A DNA stretch of 64,000 nt from Egicoccus sp. AB-alg6-2 (lineage in GTDB: Bacteria > Actinomycetota > Nitriliruptoria > Nitriliruptorales > Nitriliruptoraceae): NCBI RefSeq assembly GCF_041821025.1, contig NZ_JBGUAY010000008.1, forward strand, positions 1 to 64,000. The letters run 5' to 3'. The position numbers and the translations under genes were made by a program. The notes below the pieces were generated by a model that searched no databases, was not told where the DNA came from, and saw only the letters and a list, made by a program, of their open reading frames with translations. How positions within the stretch are numbered: position 1 is the first letter of the stretch; each line of letters starts with the position of its first letter. This document shows, piece by piece, positions 23,749-62,376 of this stretch.

Positions 23749-26562
<2,814 letters not shown>

Positions 26563-26588: not shown

Positions 26589-26620
26589 CGTGAGGGCCGC
26601 CCAAGAGGGCGGCCCTCACG
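26589..26620 (+). terminator. Perfect 14-bp hairpin after nrdJ
   Basis: CGTGAGGGCCGCCC pairs exactly with GGGCGGCCCTCACG around the loop AAGA. It starts 27 bases after the nrdJ stop. There is no T-run and the ribosome site of the next small gene begins only about 11 bases later, so it may act as an RNA-stability or attenuation element instead of a complete terminator. Confidence 0.6.
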
Positions 26621-26646: not shown

Positions 26647-26817
26647 ATGGCGAAGAATGGCCCCAAAGGTGGCGGTCGCATCGGCGCGGTGAAGAACCGC
26701 ACGCAGTTCGAGAATCCGGCGACTGGCACCTACACAAAGCGCAATGCCACGACCGGTCAGTTCATGAACAACAAGGCCGATTCCAACCCGTTCAAGGGCA
26801 TCCGTCGCGAGAAGTGA
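26647..26817 (+). CDS. Small basic protein of 56 residues
   Basis: A short, Lys/Arg/Asn-rich, hydrophilic protein: MAKNGPKGGGR at the start, KNRTQFENPATGTYTKR in the middle and FKGIRREK at the end. It has no hydrophobic segment or cysteine. I recall similar small conserved proteins of this pattern in many bacteria but know of no assigned function. The ribosome site is exceptional: AAGGAGGTGATC (26632-26643) complements the 16S 3' end over 12 bases. This implies strong translation. It lies between nrdJ and the homing endonuclease gene. Confidence 0.75.
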   Translation: MAKNGPKGGGRIGAVKNRTQFENPATGTYTKRNATTGQFMNNKADSNPFKGIRREK

Positions 26818-26876
26818 TCCACAACCAGCATGCCGCCGCCTGACTCGATGTCACAGCGCGGCGGCATGCTGTTGCG

Positions 26877-28061
26877 ATGGATGTTCGCCTCGACGAGCTG
26901 CTCGGCCAGAGCGGCATCTGCGCCCGCGGTGTGGTCCACGGCGGCGACGGTGAGATCAGACTCCGCTCGGGCCACCGTCTCAGTGGGTTGACCGCCGCCG
27001 AGATCCTCGTCGCTGACGATGCGGGCCCCCGATGGACCTCCCTCGACGCCCTTGAGCCGGGGGGCTACGTGGCCGTCCGGTACGGCGGCTGGCTTTGGCC
27101 GACCGAGGCGCCCAGACTGGACGGCTTCGCCCCCTCGCCTGCATACGGTCGCCAGAAGTCGATTCAGATCCCCGATCGGCTGGATGACGACCTTGCCCTG
27201 CTGCTGGGCATGTACGTCGCTGAGGGCTCGAGCGTCGCCAGCAACTGGACGGTTAGCATCACAAATGCCGACAGCGGCGTGCGCGAACTCACCGCCCGAC
27301 TGATCCGCGAGAAGTTCGGGACCGAGCCGTTCATCCAGATCGGCTATGGCCGCTGTGGGTCGACGAGGCTCGCCTCGAAGCGGTTCATCGAATGGCTGGA
27401 TTTCGTCGGTGCCGGTCGCACTGCCTACAAGAAGCGCATTCCAAGAGCTGTGCTGGCGGCTCCCCGCTCGAGCGTGCTGGCGTTCATCCAGGGGCTCGGG
27501 CTTGACGGGTACTCGACGCAGGTGGGGTACTCGCCGCGGTGGGCAATCTGCGTCGCCTCGTCAGGTCTCCTCGATGACCTTCAGATTCTGCTGACTCGTC
27601 TCAGCATCGTCCACTCTCGCATCGAGAAGCTCAACAAGGACAACGGCAAGACCTACGGCGAAGTCTTCGTCAGCGGCGGCTCGGCCCTCGAACTTTTGCG
27701 CCTCGCGCCATTCCTGGAGGTCAAGAAGGTCGCGTCGGCGAGCCGCCTCATGCAATTGCATCCGCGAGGCGGCGCAGCCGACCAGGTGCCCGGCATCAAC
27801 GGCCGTGACCTCTACTACGCCATACCCCGAGGCAAGTTCGGGCGGCACGGGTACGGCCACCGGTCGAAGTTCACGCATCTACTCGACACACGGAGTGTCC
27901 GCGTCAGCCGCCGATCGCTGGAGCGTGTCGCATTGATCCCGGGCGTCGCCATGCCTGCGTGGGGTGAGACTGTGCTCACCGCTCACTTGCACTTCTCTCC
28001 CCTCCGCCTCCTCAGGCAGCCGGGTCCGTGGCGAATCGACGAGCGCGAGGACCATTCGTGA
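26877..28061 (+). CDS. Free-standing Hint-like LAGLIDADG (DOD-type) homing endonuclease
   Basis: 394 residues. Residues about 20-70 (IRLRSGHRLSGLTAAEILVADD...LEPGGYVAV) resemble the later part of an intein Hint domain. Two LAGLIDADG helices follow: LALLLGMYVAEGS (about 106-118) and VLAFIQGLGLDGY (about 200-212), each ending in the acidic catalytic position. No N-terminal splicing Cys/Ser block and no C-terminal His-Asn are visible, so it cannot splice as read. It stands directly behind nrdJ, a gene class often holding inteins. Base use is a little less GC-rich than the neighbours, in line with transfer. Confidence 0.75.
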   Translation: MDVRLDELLGQSGICARGVVHGGDGEIRLRSGHRLSGLTAAEILVADDAGPRWTSLDALEPGGYVAVRYGGWLWPTEAPRLDGFAPSPAYGRQKSIQIPDRLDDDLALLLGMYVAEGSSVASNWTVSITNADSGVRELTARLIREKFGTEPFIQIGYGRCGSTRLASKRFIEWLDFVGAGRTAYKKRIPRAVLAAPRSSVLAFIQGLGLDGYSTQVGYSPRWAICVASSGLLDDLQILLTRLSIVHSRIEKLNKDNGKTYGEVFVSGGSALELLRLAPFLEVKKVASASRLMQLHPRGGAADQVPGINGRDLYYAIPRGKFGRHGYGHRSKFTHLLDTRSVRVSRRSLERVALIPGVAMPAWGETVLTAHLHFSPLRLLRQPGPWRIDEREDHS

Positions 28062-28092: not shown

Positions 28093-28130
28093 CCCGCTGC
28101 GGGCGCTACCGCGGAAGCGCCCGCAGCGGG
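28093..28130. repeat. Perfect 15-bp inverted repeat (hairpin)
   Basis: CCCGCTGCGGGCGCT (28093-28107) pairs exactly with AGCGCCCGCAGCGGG (28116-28130) around the 8-base loop ACCGCGGA. It starts 31 bases after the endonuclease stop. Without a T-run it is a candidate for a terminator or a mobile-element boundary structure. Confidence 0.6.
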
Positions 28131-28248: not shown

Positions 28249-28545
28249 ATGACTGGGCGACGGGCACTTCTCCGCTCGGAGGTGACGGGGCACTGGGAGG
28301 CCCTCGAGGTTGTGAATGATGCGGACGCGCTGCTTCATCACCGAGCACCGGATCCGTACCTTCTTGTCGAGTCCGGCCGCTCGGGACCGAGCCGCAAGTA
28401 CTTATCGCTACACCCGAGCCCTGAGGCGGCCGCCGAATATCACTTGGGGCAGGAGTACGCGGACGACTGGAAGGTCGACTATCTGGTTCATCTCGACTCG
28501 GGGGAGCGTCTATCGCCCGAGTTGGCGATCGGGTGGTCGCCGTGA
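28249..28545 (+). CDS. Hypothetical 98-residue protein upstream of the PLD-helicase
   Basis: ATG at 28249; a soluble, acidic-to-neutral protein with VTGHWEALEVVNDADALL, YLLVESGRSGPSRKYLS and EYHLGQEYADDWKVDYLVHL. No membrane segment and no recognised domain. It ends 61 bases before the PLD-helicase gene on the same strand and may be co-transcribed with it. It could be an accessory subunit, but that is only positional inference. A chance frame is possible given the high GC, though the amino acid composition looks protein-like. Confidence 0.45.
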   Translation: MTGRRALLRSEVTGHWEALEVVNDADALLHHRAPDPYLLVESGRSGPSRKYLSLHPSPEAAAEYHLGQEYADDWKVDYLVHLDSGERLSPELAIGWSP

Positions 28546-28606
28546 TCTAGAGGCGCAGCCGTGCTCGGAGCACCATCCGGGTGCGCGTCAACTACGGTCC
28601 CCGAGC

Positions 28607-31600
28607 ATGGAAAGCCAGGGGTTGCCGCCGGGGCGGTACGACGCGGTGCTCGATCGGCGCCTGGCTGCGGCAATCGCTTCGCTTCCGGACGCCTCGGCGG
28701 AGACGGCGCAACTCGATGACGCGGAGCAGTCGTACCGGCTCGCGCACCACGTAGCCACGGTCATCACGCAGAGGCTTGCGGGGCTTGAGCCGGACCAGCG
28801 GCTCGCGGCGGTCGATCGGCTCGTGCGGCACCTCGACGCGCCTGACGCGGGCATCGAGTCGCCCGTCCGACTGTTGCGCTCCATCGCCGCGCCGGACGGC
28901 CGTCATCGCGCGGCGCCCGGCGTGCCTCTCGGCCAGCACGATCTGCTCGTCAATGCGCGCGGCGAGCCCGGGCTGGCCGCCGAGCTCAAGCGTGAGTTGG
29001 CCAGCGCCGACCGGATCGACCTGATCGTCGCGTTTGTGCGCTGGTATGGGGTTCGGCTGCTCGTCGATGAACTGCGTGAAGCGATCGCGCGGGGCGTGCA
29101 GGTCCGGTTGCTGACCACGACCTACACCGGCTCGACTGAGGCCGAGGCGCTGCGGCGCCTGCGCGACCTCGGTGTCGACATCCGCGTGTCCTACGACACC
29201 CAGGTCACCCGCCTGCACGCCAAGGCATGGATCTTGCACCGCGACACCGGCTTCAGCACCGCCTTCGTCGGCTCGTCCAACCTCACCCACAGCGCCATGG
29301 TCGACGGCCGCGAATGGAATGTTCGGCTGTCACGCGCCGCCACGCCGGCGCTCTACGACAAGGTCGCGACCGCGTTCGACGCCCAGTGGGAATCCGGTGA
29401 CTACGAGCCCTTTGACCGGCAGCGGTTCGAGCGAGCCGTCGCCGTCACCCGACGCGTCGACGAGGCGTCGGCGCTGTCGGGGCTCGAACTGCGCGCCTGG
29501 CCCTACCAGGACGAGATCCTCGACGCGCTGACCGTCGAACGCGAGGTCCACGGCTCGCGCCGTAACCTCGTGGTCGCCCCAACCGGCACCGGCAAAACCG
29601 TCGTCGCCGCCCTCGACTACCTGCGCCTGCGACGCCAGGAGAACCGCGACCTCAGCCTGCTGTTCGTTGCCCACCGCGAGCAGATCCTGCGTCAGTCCCG
29701 CCGCACCTTCCGGGAGGCACTCGGCGACGGCTCGTTCGGGGAACTGCTCGTCGGCGGGCACCGGCCCACCGACGGCCGCCACGTCTTTGCCTCCATCCAG
29801 ACCCTGTCGTCGCCGGCGTCGCGGGACGTGATAGCCGACGATTTCGACATCGTCATCGTCGACGAGTTCCACCATGCTGAGGCACGCACCTACGAACGGC
29901 TGCTCGACCGGCTGACGTCGAGGTGGCTGCTCGCCCTGACCGCGACGCCGGAGCGCACCGACGGCCTCGACGTGCGCCGCTGGACCGACGGACGCACCGC
30001 CTTCGACATGCGGCTGTGGCACGCGCTCGACCGCGAACTGCTCGCCCCGTTCCAGTACTTCGGCATCGCCGACGTCGCCGACCTGCAGCAGGTCCGCTGG
30101 ACCGCCGGCCAGTACGACCGCGGCGACCTCGGCCGGCTCTACACCGGCAACGACGCCCGCGACCGCCTGGTCGTCCGCCAGGTGCAGCGCATCGTCGCCG
30201 ACCCGACCAGCATGCGCGCCCTCGGGTTCTGCGCGACCGTCGAGCACGCCCACCACATGGCCAAACTGTTCAACCGCCAGGGCTGGCCCGCCGTCGCGAT
30301 CGACGCGACCACCGACCAGGCCCAACGCGAGGCCCACATCCGTGCGCTCGAAGCGGGGGAGATCACCACTATCTTCACCCGCGACGTCTTCAACGAGGGC
30401 GTCGACATCCCCAGCGTCGACACCATCCTGCTGCTGCGCCCGACCGAGTCGGTCACCGTCTACCTGCAGCAGATCGGTCGCGGGCTGCGCCGCCATCCCG
30501 ACAAGCCGGTGTGCACCGTGCTCGACTTCGTCGGTCAGCACCGCAGGGAGTACCGCTACGACCTGCGGCTGCGGGCGCTGACCGGGTTGCCTCGCCGTCA
30601 GCTCGCGCAGGCCGCCGAGGACGGCTTTCCCTACCTGCCGTCGGGCTGCCACCTCGAGCTCGACCGCCAGTCCCGCGAGTGGGTCGTCGACAACCTCAAG
30701 CAGGCCGTGCTTGCCAACCGCCGCTCGCTGATCCGTGAACTGCAGAGCCTGGCCGCCCGCGAACCGGTCCGTCGGGCCCCACCGCTGGCCGACTTCCTCG
30801 TCGAGACAGGCGTCGAACTCGAGGACGTCGCGAAGGCCGGGGGATGGGCGCTGCTGCGCCGTGGCGCCAACCTCGACGATCGCCCGGTCGGACCCGACGA
30901 GGACGTCCTGCGCAAAGGCGTGCGGCGTCTGCTCCACCTTGACGACGCCGAACGGATCGACCGACTGTACAACTGGCTGTCCGCTGACCGGCCACCCGTC
31001 TTGGCCGCCGAGGTGGATCGTCGGCGGGCATGGATGTTCCTCGTGACCCTATGGTCGTTGCGCGGCGCGCCGGACGAACTCGACGCGGCCTGGCGGGGCG
31101 TCTGGGAGGCGCCGGCGCTGCGAGAGGAACTGCTCGCGACCCTGCCGCTGCTGCGCGAGCGGATCAGCCGCCCCTCGATCGCGCTGCCTGACGGCGACGT
31201 GCCGTTGCGCCTGCACGCGAGCTTCACGCGTGACGAGATCCTCGCTGGCTTCGGGCGGCTGACGCCGGGGGAGCGTTATAGCCACCAGGCCGGTCCGTGG
31301 TGGCACGAGCCGGCGAAGACCGAGGTGCTGTTCATCACGTTGCAGAAGACCGAGGCCGAGTACTCGCCGACGACGCTGTATCGCGACTACGCACTCAGCC
31401 GCGAGCTGTTCCACTGGGAGTCGCAGAACATGACGCGCCTCGATTCGGCGTCCGGCCGTCGCTACGTCGAGCAGCGCAGCAACGGCGTGCGCATCCTGCT
31501 TGCAGTCCGCGCCTCGAAGCAAGACGCCTGGGGCACCACACGCCCCTACGTGCTGCTCGGGCCAGCCGACTACGTCCGCCATGAGGGCGAGCGCCCCATC

Positions 31601-31672
31601 GCCCTCACGTGGCGGCTGGCCAACCCGATTCCGGCCGACCTCTACGAAGTTTTCAAGGTCGCCGCCGCCTGA
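28607..31672 (+). CDS. PLD-nuclease / SF2 helicase / DUF3427 fusion protein, putative defence protein
   Basis: 1021 residues. An N-terminal phospholipase-D-like nuclease domain (about 105-245) has LHAKAWIL with His204 and Lys206 followed by FVGSSNLTHSAM. A superfamily 2 helicase follows with Walker A APTGTGKT (about 324-331), the Walker B motif DEFH (419-422), SATP-type ALTATPERTDG and motif VI QQIGRGLRR. From about 690 to the end is the DUF3427 region (SFTRDEILAGFG...LFHWESQNMT...PYVLLGPADYV). Such three-part proteins are often found in defence islands, acting on foreign nucleic acid; the role here is inference. No methyltransferase partner is seen. Confidence 0.85.
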   Translation: MESQGLPPGRYDAVLDRRLAAAIASLPDASAETAQLDDAEQSYRLAHHVATVITQRLAGLEPDQRLAAVDRLVRHLDAPDAGIESPVRLLRSIAAPDGRHRAAPGVPLGQHDLLVNARGEPGLAAELKRELASADRIDLIVAFVRWYGVRLLVDELREAIARGVQVRLLTTTYTGSTEAEALRRLRDLGVDIRVSYDTQVTRLHAKAWILHRDTGFSTAFVGSSNLTHSAMVDGREWNVRLSRAATPALYDKVATAFDAQWESGDYEPFDRQRFERAVAVTRRVDEASALSGLELRAWPYQDEILDALTVEREVHGSRRNLVVAPTGTGKTVVAALDYLRLRRQENRDLSLLFVAHREQILRQSRRTFREALGDGSFGELLVGGHRPTDGRHVFASIQTLSSPASRDVIADDFDIVIVDEFHHAEARTYERLLDRLTSRWLLALTATPERTDGLDVRRWTDGRTAFDMRLWHALDRELLAPFQYFGIADVADLQQVRWTAGQYDRGDLGRLYTGNDARDRLVVRQVQRIVADPTSMRALGFCATVEHAHHMAKLFNRQGWPAVAIDATTDQAQREAHIRALEAGEITTIFTRDVFNEGVDIPSVDTILLLRPTESVTVYLQQIGRGLRRHPDKPVCTVLDFVGQHRREYRYDLRLRALTGLPRRQLAQAAEDGFPYLPSGCHLELDRQSREWVVDNLKQAVLANRRSLIRELQSLAAREPVRRAPPLADFLVETGVELEDVAKAGGWALLRRGANLDDRPVGPDEDVLRKGVRRLLHLDDAERIDRLYNWLSADRPPVLAAEVDRRRAWMFLVTLWSLRGAPDELDAAWRGVWEAPALREELLATLPLLRERISRPSIALPDGDVPLRLHASFTRDEILAGFGRLTPGERYSHQAGPWWHEPAKTEVLFITLQKTEAEYSPTTLYRDYALSRELFHWESQNMTRLDSASGRRYVEQRSNGVRILLAVRASKQDAWGTTRPYVLLGPADYVRHEGERPIALTWRLANPIPADLYEVFKVAAA

Positions 31673-61446: not shown

Positions 61447-62376
61447 TCAGCGCCGGCTCGACGCGTCGTCGACGTCGAGGATGGCACAGGTCAACTCGTG
61501 CTTGTTCTGGTCGAGGTGGAACAGCTGGGCGTTCGGTAGTGCAGCGAACTGTGCCGCCACGGCGTGGTCGGTCGCGCCCTGGAACTTCACCGTGCAGACG
61601 AGGTTGCGCACCCCGCCGGCGTCGAGCCAGCGCGTCACCAGCTCGAGCAGCCGGTCCGGGTAGGCGATGATGTCGCTGCACCACCAGTCGAGCGGTCCGA
61701 ACGCGGTCGGCTCCAGCGCGAACGCCGAGCCCTGCGACCAGGTCACGTTCGGTAGCGCGGTGACGTCGTCCGCGAGCGGTGCCTTGTCCACGGCAACGAC
61801 GTCCGCGCCGGTCCGTGCCAGCAACCAGGTCCAGCCGCCGGGCGCGGCACCGAGGTCGAGGCAGCGGTCACCCGGTGCGGGCTGGCGCCGCAGCCGCGCG
61901 AAGGTCTCCCACAGCTTCAGGTAGGCGCGACTCGGTGGTCCGCGCCGGTCCTCCACGAACTGCGGGACGCCGTTGGGAAACGGCACGGCGCAGTCGGCCG
62001 CCGCCAGGACGAGGTCGCGGTTCAACAGCGTCCATGAGCCGAGCGGTGCGTCGGGCGCCACCTCACCGAGCTCGAGAGGCCGGGCCGAGACATGGGGGAG
62101 CTTGTCGGCGATCAGCTCGGCACGTCCCCGGAGCGTCGGCGCGTACACGGTCCAGTTGCGTTGCCGTTGACGCAACTCGCGGGCCGCATGTCCGATGGAA
62201 CGGATCTCGATCCGCTCGGCGTCCCACCAGGTGTTGGCCGCCCATGCGGCGTGCACCGGCGGGCTCTCGCTGATCCGCAGCCGGCCGTGCATCTCGTTCA
62301 CGGCGACGCCCGCGAGGCGGAGCTCCTCGTCGAGTTCTGCCTCGAAGTCCTCGGCGGCGAGATAGGCCGTCGTCAC
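61447..62376 (-). CDS. RlmM/FtsJ-like RNA 2'-O-methyltransferase
   Basis: 309 residues. An N-terminal substrate-binding region precedes an FtsJ/RrmJ Rossmann domain. The SAM motif is CLDLGAAPGGWTWLLA (about 172-187), and the K-D-K-E tetrad can be assigned to Lys in AYLKLWE, Asp in WWCSDII, Lys in CTVKFQG and Glu in NKHELTC. This is the layout of RlmM, the C2498 2'-O-methyltransferase of 23S rRNA, best known in Gram-negative bacteria. The exact nucleotide here is unknown. Confidence 0.82.
   Translation of the reverse strand: MTTAYLAAEDFEAELDEELRLAGVAVNEMHGRLRISESPPVHAAWAANTWWDAERIEIRSIGHAARELRQRQRNWTVYAPTLRGRAELIADKLPHVSARPLELGEVAPDAPLGSWTLLNRDLVLAAADCAVPFPNGVPQFVEDRRGPPSRAYLKLWETFARLRRQPAPGDRCLDLGAAPGGWTWLLARTGADVVAVDKAPLADDVTALPNVTWSQGSAFALEPTAFGPLDWWCSDIIAYPDRLLELVTRWLDAGGVRNLVCTVKFQGATDHAVAAQFAALPNAQLFHLDQNKHELTCAILDVDDASSRR

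Follow-up and report, generated by a model that had tools for sequence, protein, structure and literature searches.

At the split-intein loci (fractured genes) that Dassa and colleagues reportedly described in 2009, a separate endonuclease gene is said to lie between the split-intein halves. Free-standing endonucleases of phage T4 cut hundreds to thousands of base pairs from their own genes and rely on co-conversion (PMC2988022). Among them SegF and SegG, the examples of intronless homing, are encoded in intergenic positions beside a conserved, presumed target gene, with the cut site about 1 kb away (PMC2988022). In the collaborative homing of cyanophage S-PM2, the free-standing F-CphI lies beside the gene whose intervening-sequence insertion site is its target (PMC6083498). 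A further point of comparison is provided by inteins inserted at GAISK^TVN in NrdJ, the class II ribonucleotide reductase (L004, L005, G040 and the viral L078).

The locus considered here lies in the window, the whole stretch of 64,000 nucleotides that was analysed, where an open reading frame at 26877-28061 (plus strand, 394 amino acids) stands behind nrdJ. The encoded protein is like the NrdJ inteins in its residues 26-383, LAGLIDADG core, C-terminal domain and associated host gene. Unlike them, it lies outside an nrdJ whose intein site is empty, has its own start and stop, and lacks Cys1, the block-B His and the C-terminal His-Asn. As at split-intein loci, the endonuclease gene is apart from a splicing domain, whereas the nrdJ of the window holds no intein halves. 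SegF and SegG resemble it in gene position and in the distance to the presumed cut site, but they are GIY-YIG or HNH phage enzymes with demonstrated activity, whereas the protein of the window is a chromosomal, intein-derived LAGLIDADG enzyme predicted from sequence. F-CphI, likewise placed beside its presumed counterpart of a target gene, carries an Endo VII motif and has its site hidden by an intron, whereas here an empty site is altered by substitution. By analogy, the gene would be an intein-derived, chromosomal counterpart of T4 intronless homing, with the site mutated instead of masked. In the incomplete body of literature that we covered, we found no description of a free-standing endonuclease that derives from an intein and lies next to the gene that once hosted it, and we therefore make no claim of priority.

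The frame runs for 394 codons without a stop, and its GC content by codon position (GC1/2/3 of 0.66/0.50/0.81) is that of a coding gene. The earlier note had read both LAGLIDADG helices in it and had named a profile search that found no such domain as a possible refutation; the search recovered LAGLIDADG_3 (PF14528) as the sole Pfam match, at 28.4 bits against a cut-off of 22.5. The two motifs, LLGMYVAEG (27201-27227) and FIQGLGLDGY (27483-27512), both on the plus strand, keep the catalytic acids E116 and D210 in the alignments, the arrangement that defines an intein-type LAGLIDADG homing endonuclease. NCBIfam matches are to intein-bearing proteins, in their endonuclease part. Among solved structures the TliVMA intein and PI-PkoII are the best sequence matches, and TliVMA is matched both by sequence (E=3.7e-9) and by fold (4.5e-16). 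In the AlphaFold model (11 homologues) the LAGLIDADG core is confident and the helical C-terminal domain less certain, and Foldseek places the TliVMA intein, PI-PfuI, PI-SceI, I-Tsp061I and I-DmoI among the fold matches, with WhiA lower in the list. The product is best read as a two-motif, splicing-dead, intein-derived LAGLIDADG homing endonuclease.

WhiA has a LAGLIDADG fold without nuclease activity, and its structures among the fold matches, together with the position of the gene next to nrdJ on the same strand, would suit a domesticated DNA-binding protein such as an nrdJ regulator. A WhiA-like protein should have lost the catalytic acids and be conserved in its lineage; here both acids are kept, and the gene is sporadic and absent from the congeners G001-G003, whereas a regulator of nrdJ would be expected to stay with it. 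We consider domestication very improbable.

The closest relatives of the protein are full inteins from Actinomycetota and one viral contig, with 38-48% identity over residues ~26-383 (26952-28025, plus strand); those in public genomes are 43-48% identical and the viral one 38%. In every relative examined the intein separates the K from the T in the GAISK^T(V/I)N of NrdJ; for G357 the N-terminal junction alone was read, and the ends of G478 are left out of the count. Where both ends were read, inteins at this site are 430-442 amino acids long. The comparison with inteins that the earlier note had called for led to NrdJ itself. In the NrdJ of the viral contig (L078 1-4989), which carries two inteins, the homologous one occupies the actinobacterial GAISK^TVN site. 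A scan of viral contigs with the single protein gave no match and with an alignment as query gave one intein, and tblastn against phages and plasmids found no relative. NrdJ in this part of the Actinomycetota holds inteins at several different sites (L004, L030, L037, L066 and other nrdJ loci), with up to three in one gene in L004. The genome of the window also encodes two complete RecA inteins and one DnaB intein with normal splice ends (L026 3087-7064 on contig C3; L027 2748-5639 on contig C1).

A second free copy is found in G010, another genus of the same family. This homologue lies outside nrdJ, has a similarly short N-terminus, has also lost the block-B His, and is truncated by an IS3-type element whose 43-bp inverted ends are imperfect, which leaves the copy in the window as the one intact free-standing copy known. 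Two overlapping samples, each of about 395 Actinomycetota genomes, together with the class of the window and two other groups (roughly 500 actinobacterial genomes), contained no further free copy. When RecA and DnaB inteins serve as outgroup, the tree unites the two free copies (97/96) within the NrdJ inteins, and support for this clade is 78/86 without the outgroup. Their joint placement should be read with care, given their long branches (1.43 for the gene in the window and 1.23, against about 0.3) and the distant outgroup. Since the relatives are nrdJ inteins, all at one site, and the tree nests the gene among them, the earlier suggestion of an escaped intein is well supported; the gene almost certainly descends from an NrdJ intein inserted at GAISK^TVN. 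That it now moves independently, as the note also suggested, is conjecture, since just two free copies were found and the one in G010 is broken. Values of pN/pS between the free gene and inteins are raised above those among inteins, a weak result with synonymous sites saturated, and pN/pS was set aside as evidence that selection acts on the free gene. Together with the long branches, they suggest relaxed selection.

The splicing parts of the ancestral intein are missing. In the alignment the frame starts about 30-50 residues inside the intein, leaving the Cys1 region without counterpart, and stops where blocks F and G belong. The conserved T-x-N-H of block B, TENH in the NrdJ inteins, reads TAAE, with the His lost. 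The Pfam Intein_splicing model matched 10/10 tested inteins and neither the gene of the window nor the free copy of G010, in agreement with the earlier observation that no splicing residues stand at either end. A splicing element is thereby rejected, with the N-terminal Cys/Ser, the block-B T-x-x-H and the C-terminal His-Asn followed by Cys/Ser/Thr all missing, and an in-frame intein is ruled out by the separate start and stop and the uninterrupted nrdJ. The earlier note had also seen the second half of a Hint fold. Sequence around block B does persist, but no folded Hint half does: because T-x-N-H became TAAE and the pLDDT of residues 1-67 is mostly 28-57, we regard this part as a remnant. 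Nothing convincing as a frameshifted intein end or extein remnant was seen around the gene in any frame. Of the 121 aligned intein-invariant positions 85 are kept, and of those in the C-terminal domain 21 of 24.

The gene starts 314 bp 3' of nrdJ (23749-26562, plus strand), which is intact, as the earlier note had it, free of inteins and present in a single copy in the genome (NCBIfam PRK06556, 1450.8 bits). A strong hairpin follows each gene of this segment: a terminator-like one behind nrdJ (26589-26620), one at 26826-26871 behind a 56-aa ORF (26647-26817) that lies between nrdJ and the endonuclease gene, and a terminator-like one behind the endonuclease gene (28093-28130), all on the plus strand. 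Only 5 nt separate the second of these from the start codon of the endonuclease, and the gene shows no clear ribosome site, so that its expression is doubtful. The GC3 of the endonuclease gene (0.81) and the 56-aa ORF (0.80) against 0.95 for nrdJ is in line with a later arrival of the two.

These observations bear on the main rival explanation, in which the gene would be a relic in decay: a piece of an intein that rearrangement left, or deposited as a copy, 3' of nrdJ, unexpressed or inactive by now but with its frame still open. The lost splicing parts, the branch of 1.43, the raised pN/pS, the hairpin with no clear expression signals and the broken state of the only other copy all favour it. 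Decay is harder to reconcile with 394 open codons and both catalytic acids in a protein that differs from every intein by more than 50%, and the probability that a random frame equal in composition and length has no stop is about 1e-4, as estimated from base composition. The persistence of 21 of 24 invariant residues in the C-terminal domain and the existence of two related free copies in the same state also argue against it. We regard a relic as a serious possibility, though on balance we doubt it.

Comparison with G001, G002, G003 and G010 places the gene in a variable region that extends from nrdJ to an FtsJ-like methyltransferase gene (26563-61446). In all three congeners (G001-G003), DNA similarity ends within a few bases of the nrdJ stop codon and the endonuclease gene is absent, which answers the earlier call to compare the nrdJ-downstream region in relatives. 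In G002 and G003 similarity returns at the conserved FtsJ-like methyltransferase gene (61447-62376 in the window), besides a shared restriction-type gene. The region measures about 35 kb in the window, 20 kb in G002, 12 kb in G003 and about 41 kb in G010, and it holds the endonuclease in both carrier genomes, 0.3 kb from nrdJ in the window and 26 kb from it in G010. As a free-standing homing gene should be, the gene is optional, placed between conserved genes and missing in close relatives. The 56-aa ORF (MAKNGPKGGGRIGAVK...) is about 58-66% identical to small, often unannotated plasmid ORFs (Klebsiella, Hymenobacter, Streptococcus and others). Because it is found in 0/40 relatives, its co-inheritance with the endonuclease was rejected and we take it as a separate accessory gene. 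The variable region of G003 includes a DNA methyltransferase and a Vsr-like nuclease, and that of G002 several IS elements.

Next to the endonuclease gene, 28316-31672 encodes a protein with PLD-nuclease, DEAD helicase and DUF3427 domains that PADLOC matches to a type IV methyl-directed restriction enzyme (E 4.7e-261), and whose homologues occur in the nrdJ-downstream region of G002 and G003. An active endonuclease with its main role elsewhere might, like this neighbour, serve host or island defence by cutting the nrdJ of incoming phages or other elements, a role that would suit the presence of the same intein family in a viral NrdJ. PADLOC, however, finds no match for the endonuclease itself, neither G002 nor G003 conserves it together with the restriction gene, and neighbourhood alone is weak evidence in a variable region. 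We judge a defence role unlikely.

The earlier note had also raised a site in or next to nrdJ as the target. The empty insertion site GAISK^TCNLP lies at 25744-25772 on the plus strand, as aligned with NrdJ inteins and relatives, with the insertion point at 25758/25759 followed by the codons ACC TGC AAC (T-C-N). The second of these (25762-25764) encodes Cys where relatives have GTN for Val. Relatives in the class whose site is empty have Val as the middle residue, in one case Ile, and none but the window and G001, its sister species, has Cys; in a pattern search of 396 genomes of the phylum, T-V-N occurs in 154 and T-C-N in one, the genome of the window. The change from GTN to TGC takes two amino-acid-changing steps in one codon. 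The NrdJ of the window departs from its relatives at 4 of the 541 columns conserved at 90% or more, by this V-to-C at +2 and by A to S, V to A and I to V, which are mild; strictly invariant columns omit the V-to-C position, since one relative has Ile. By chance, one of four departures would land within three codons of the insertion point in about 4% of cases, by a test chosen post hoc.

The occurrence of this rare substitution exactly at the site adds an argument for recognition of a site in or next to nrdJ, which is plausible, and the substitution may spare the host chromosome from cleavage by the enzyme it encodes. It is not unique to the gene-bearing genome, an idea that was dropped once G001 proved to carry T-C-N as well. 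Because no endonuclease gene was detected in G001, whose assembly is 77% complete, the substitution may be older than the gene or unrelated to it. G010, with the broken copy, keeps the sensitive-type T-V-N.

A mechanism that we call "inteinless homing", by analogy with intronless homing, could account for this arrangement. The ancestor, an intein at GAISK^TVN in nrdJ, lost its self-splicing ends, and the gene now lies 1.1 kb downstream of the site. The enzyme would still recognise and cut the intein-free, TVN-type nrdJ of other, gene-free lineages, and repair of the break from the donor chromosome would co-convert the 3' part of nrdJ with the linked endonuclease, over the 1.1 kb up to and including the gene. 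The donor would be protected by the V-to-C change (GTN to TGC) at +2 and not by an intein filling the site. The sequences show the origin from the NrdJ intein, the missing splicing parts, the kept catalytic core and the altered site; we infer cutting, target identity, resistance and co-conversion.

In support of inteinless homing, the catalytic acids are kept, the LAGLIDADG model is confident with intein endonucleases as its best fold matches, and the free copy of G010 lies in the same nrdJ-downstream variable region and groups with that of the window (97/96). The rarity of T-C-N and its place exactly at the site also speak for it, as does the T-V-N of G010, whose copy is broken. Against it, the 26 kb between nrdJ and the gene in G010 exceed what ordinary co-conversion starting at the nrdJ site would span, a single intact copy is known, the V-to-C argument is post hoc, and G001 has T-C-N with no detected gene; the signs of relaxed selection and the hairpin before the start codon also weigh against it. 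On this evidence, an intein-derived, splicing-dead endonuclease with inteinless homing next to nrdJ is the best explanation overall, and we give it an even chance. The full mechanism, with cutting of TVN sites, donor-templated repair and V-to-C self-resistance, falls somewhat short of that and is put forward tentatively. The T-C-N site and the linked gene would fit a self-resistant module, and we suggest, with slightly greater reserve, that such a chromosomal module uses the old intein site as target, is protected by the linked V-to-C in nrdJ and spreads resistant allele and endonuclease by gene conversion.

An intein and a free-standing homing gene are commonly regarded as distinct end states. 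On this bacterial chromosome the first seems to have become the second, and in relatives the ancestral intein family persists at the original site. The altered nrdJ site predicts that the enzyme would cut TVN-type sites and spare TCN-type sites, a prediction that bears on how a homing enzyme may survive when no intervening sequence masks its target.
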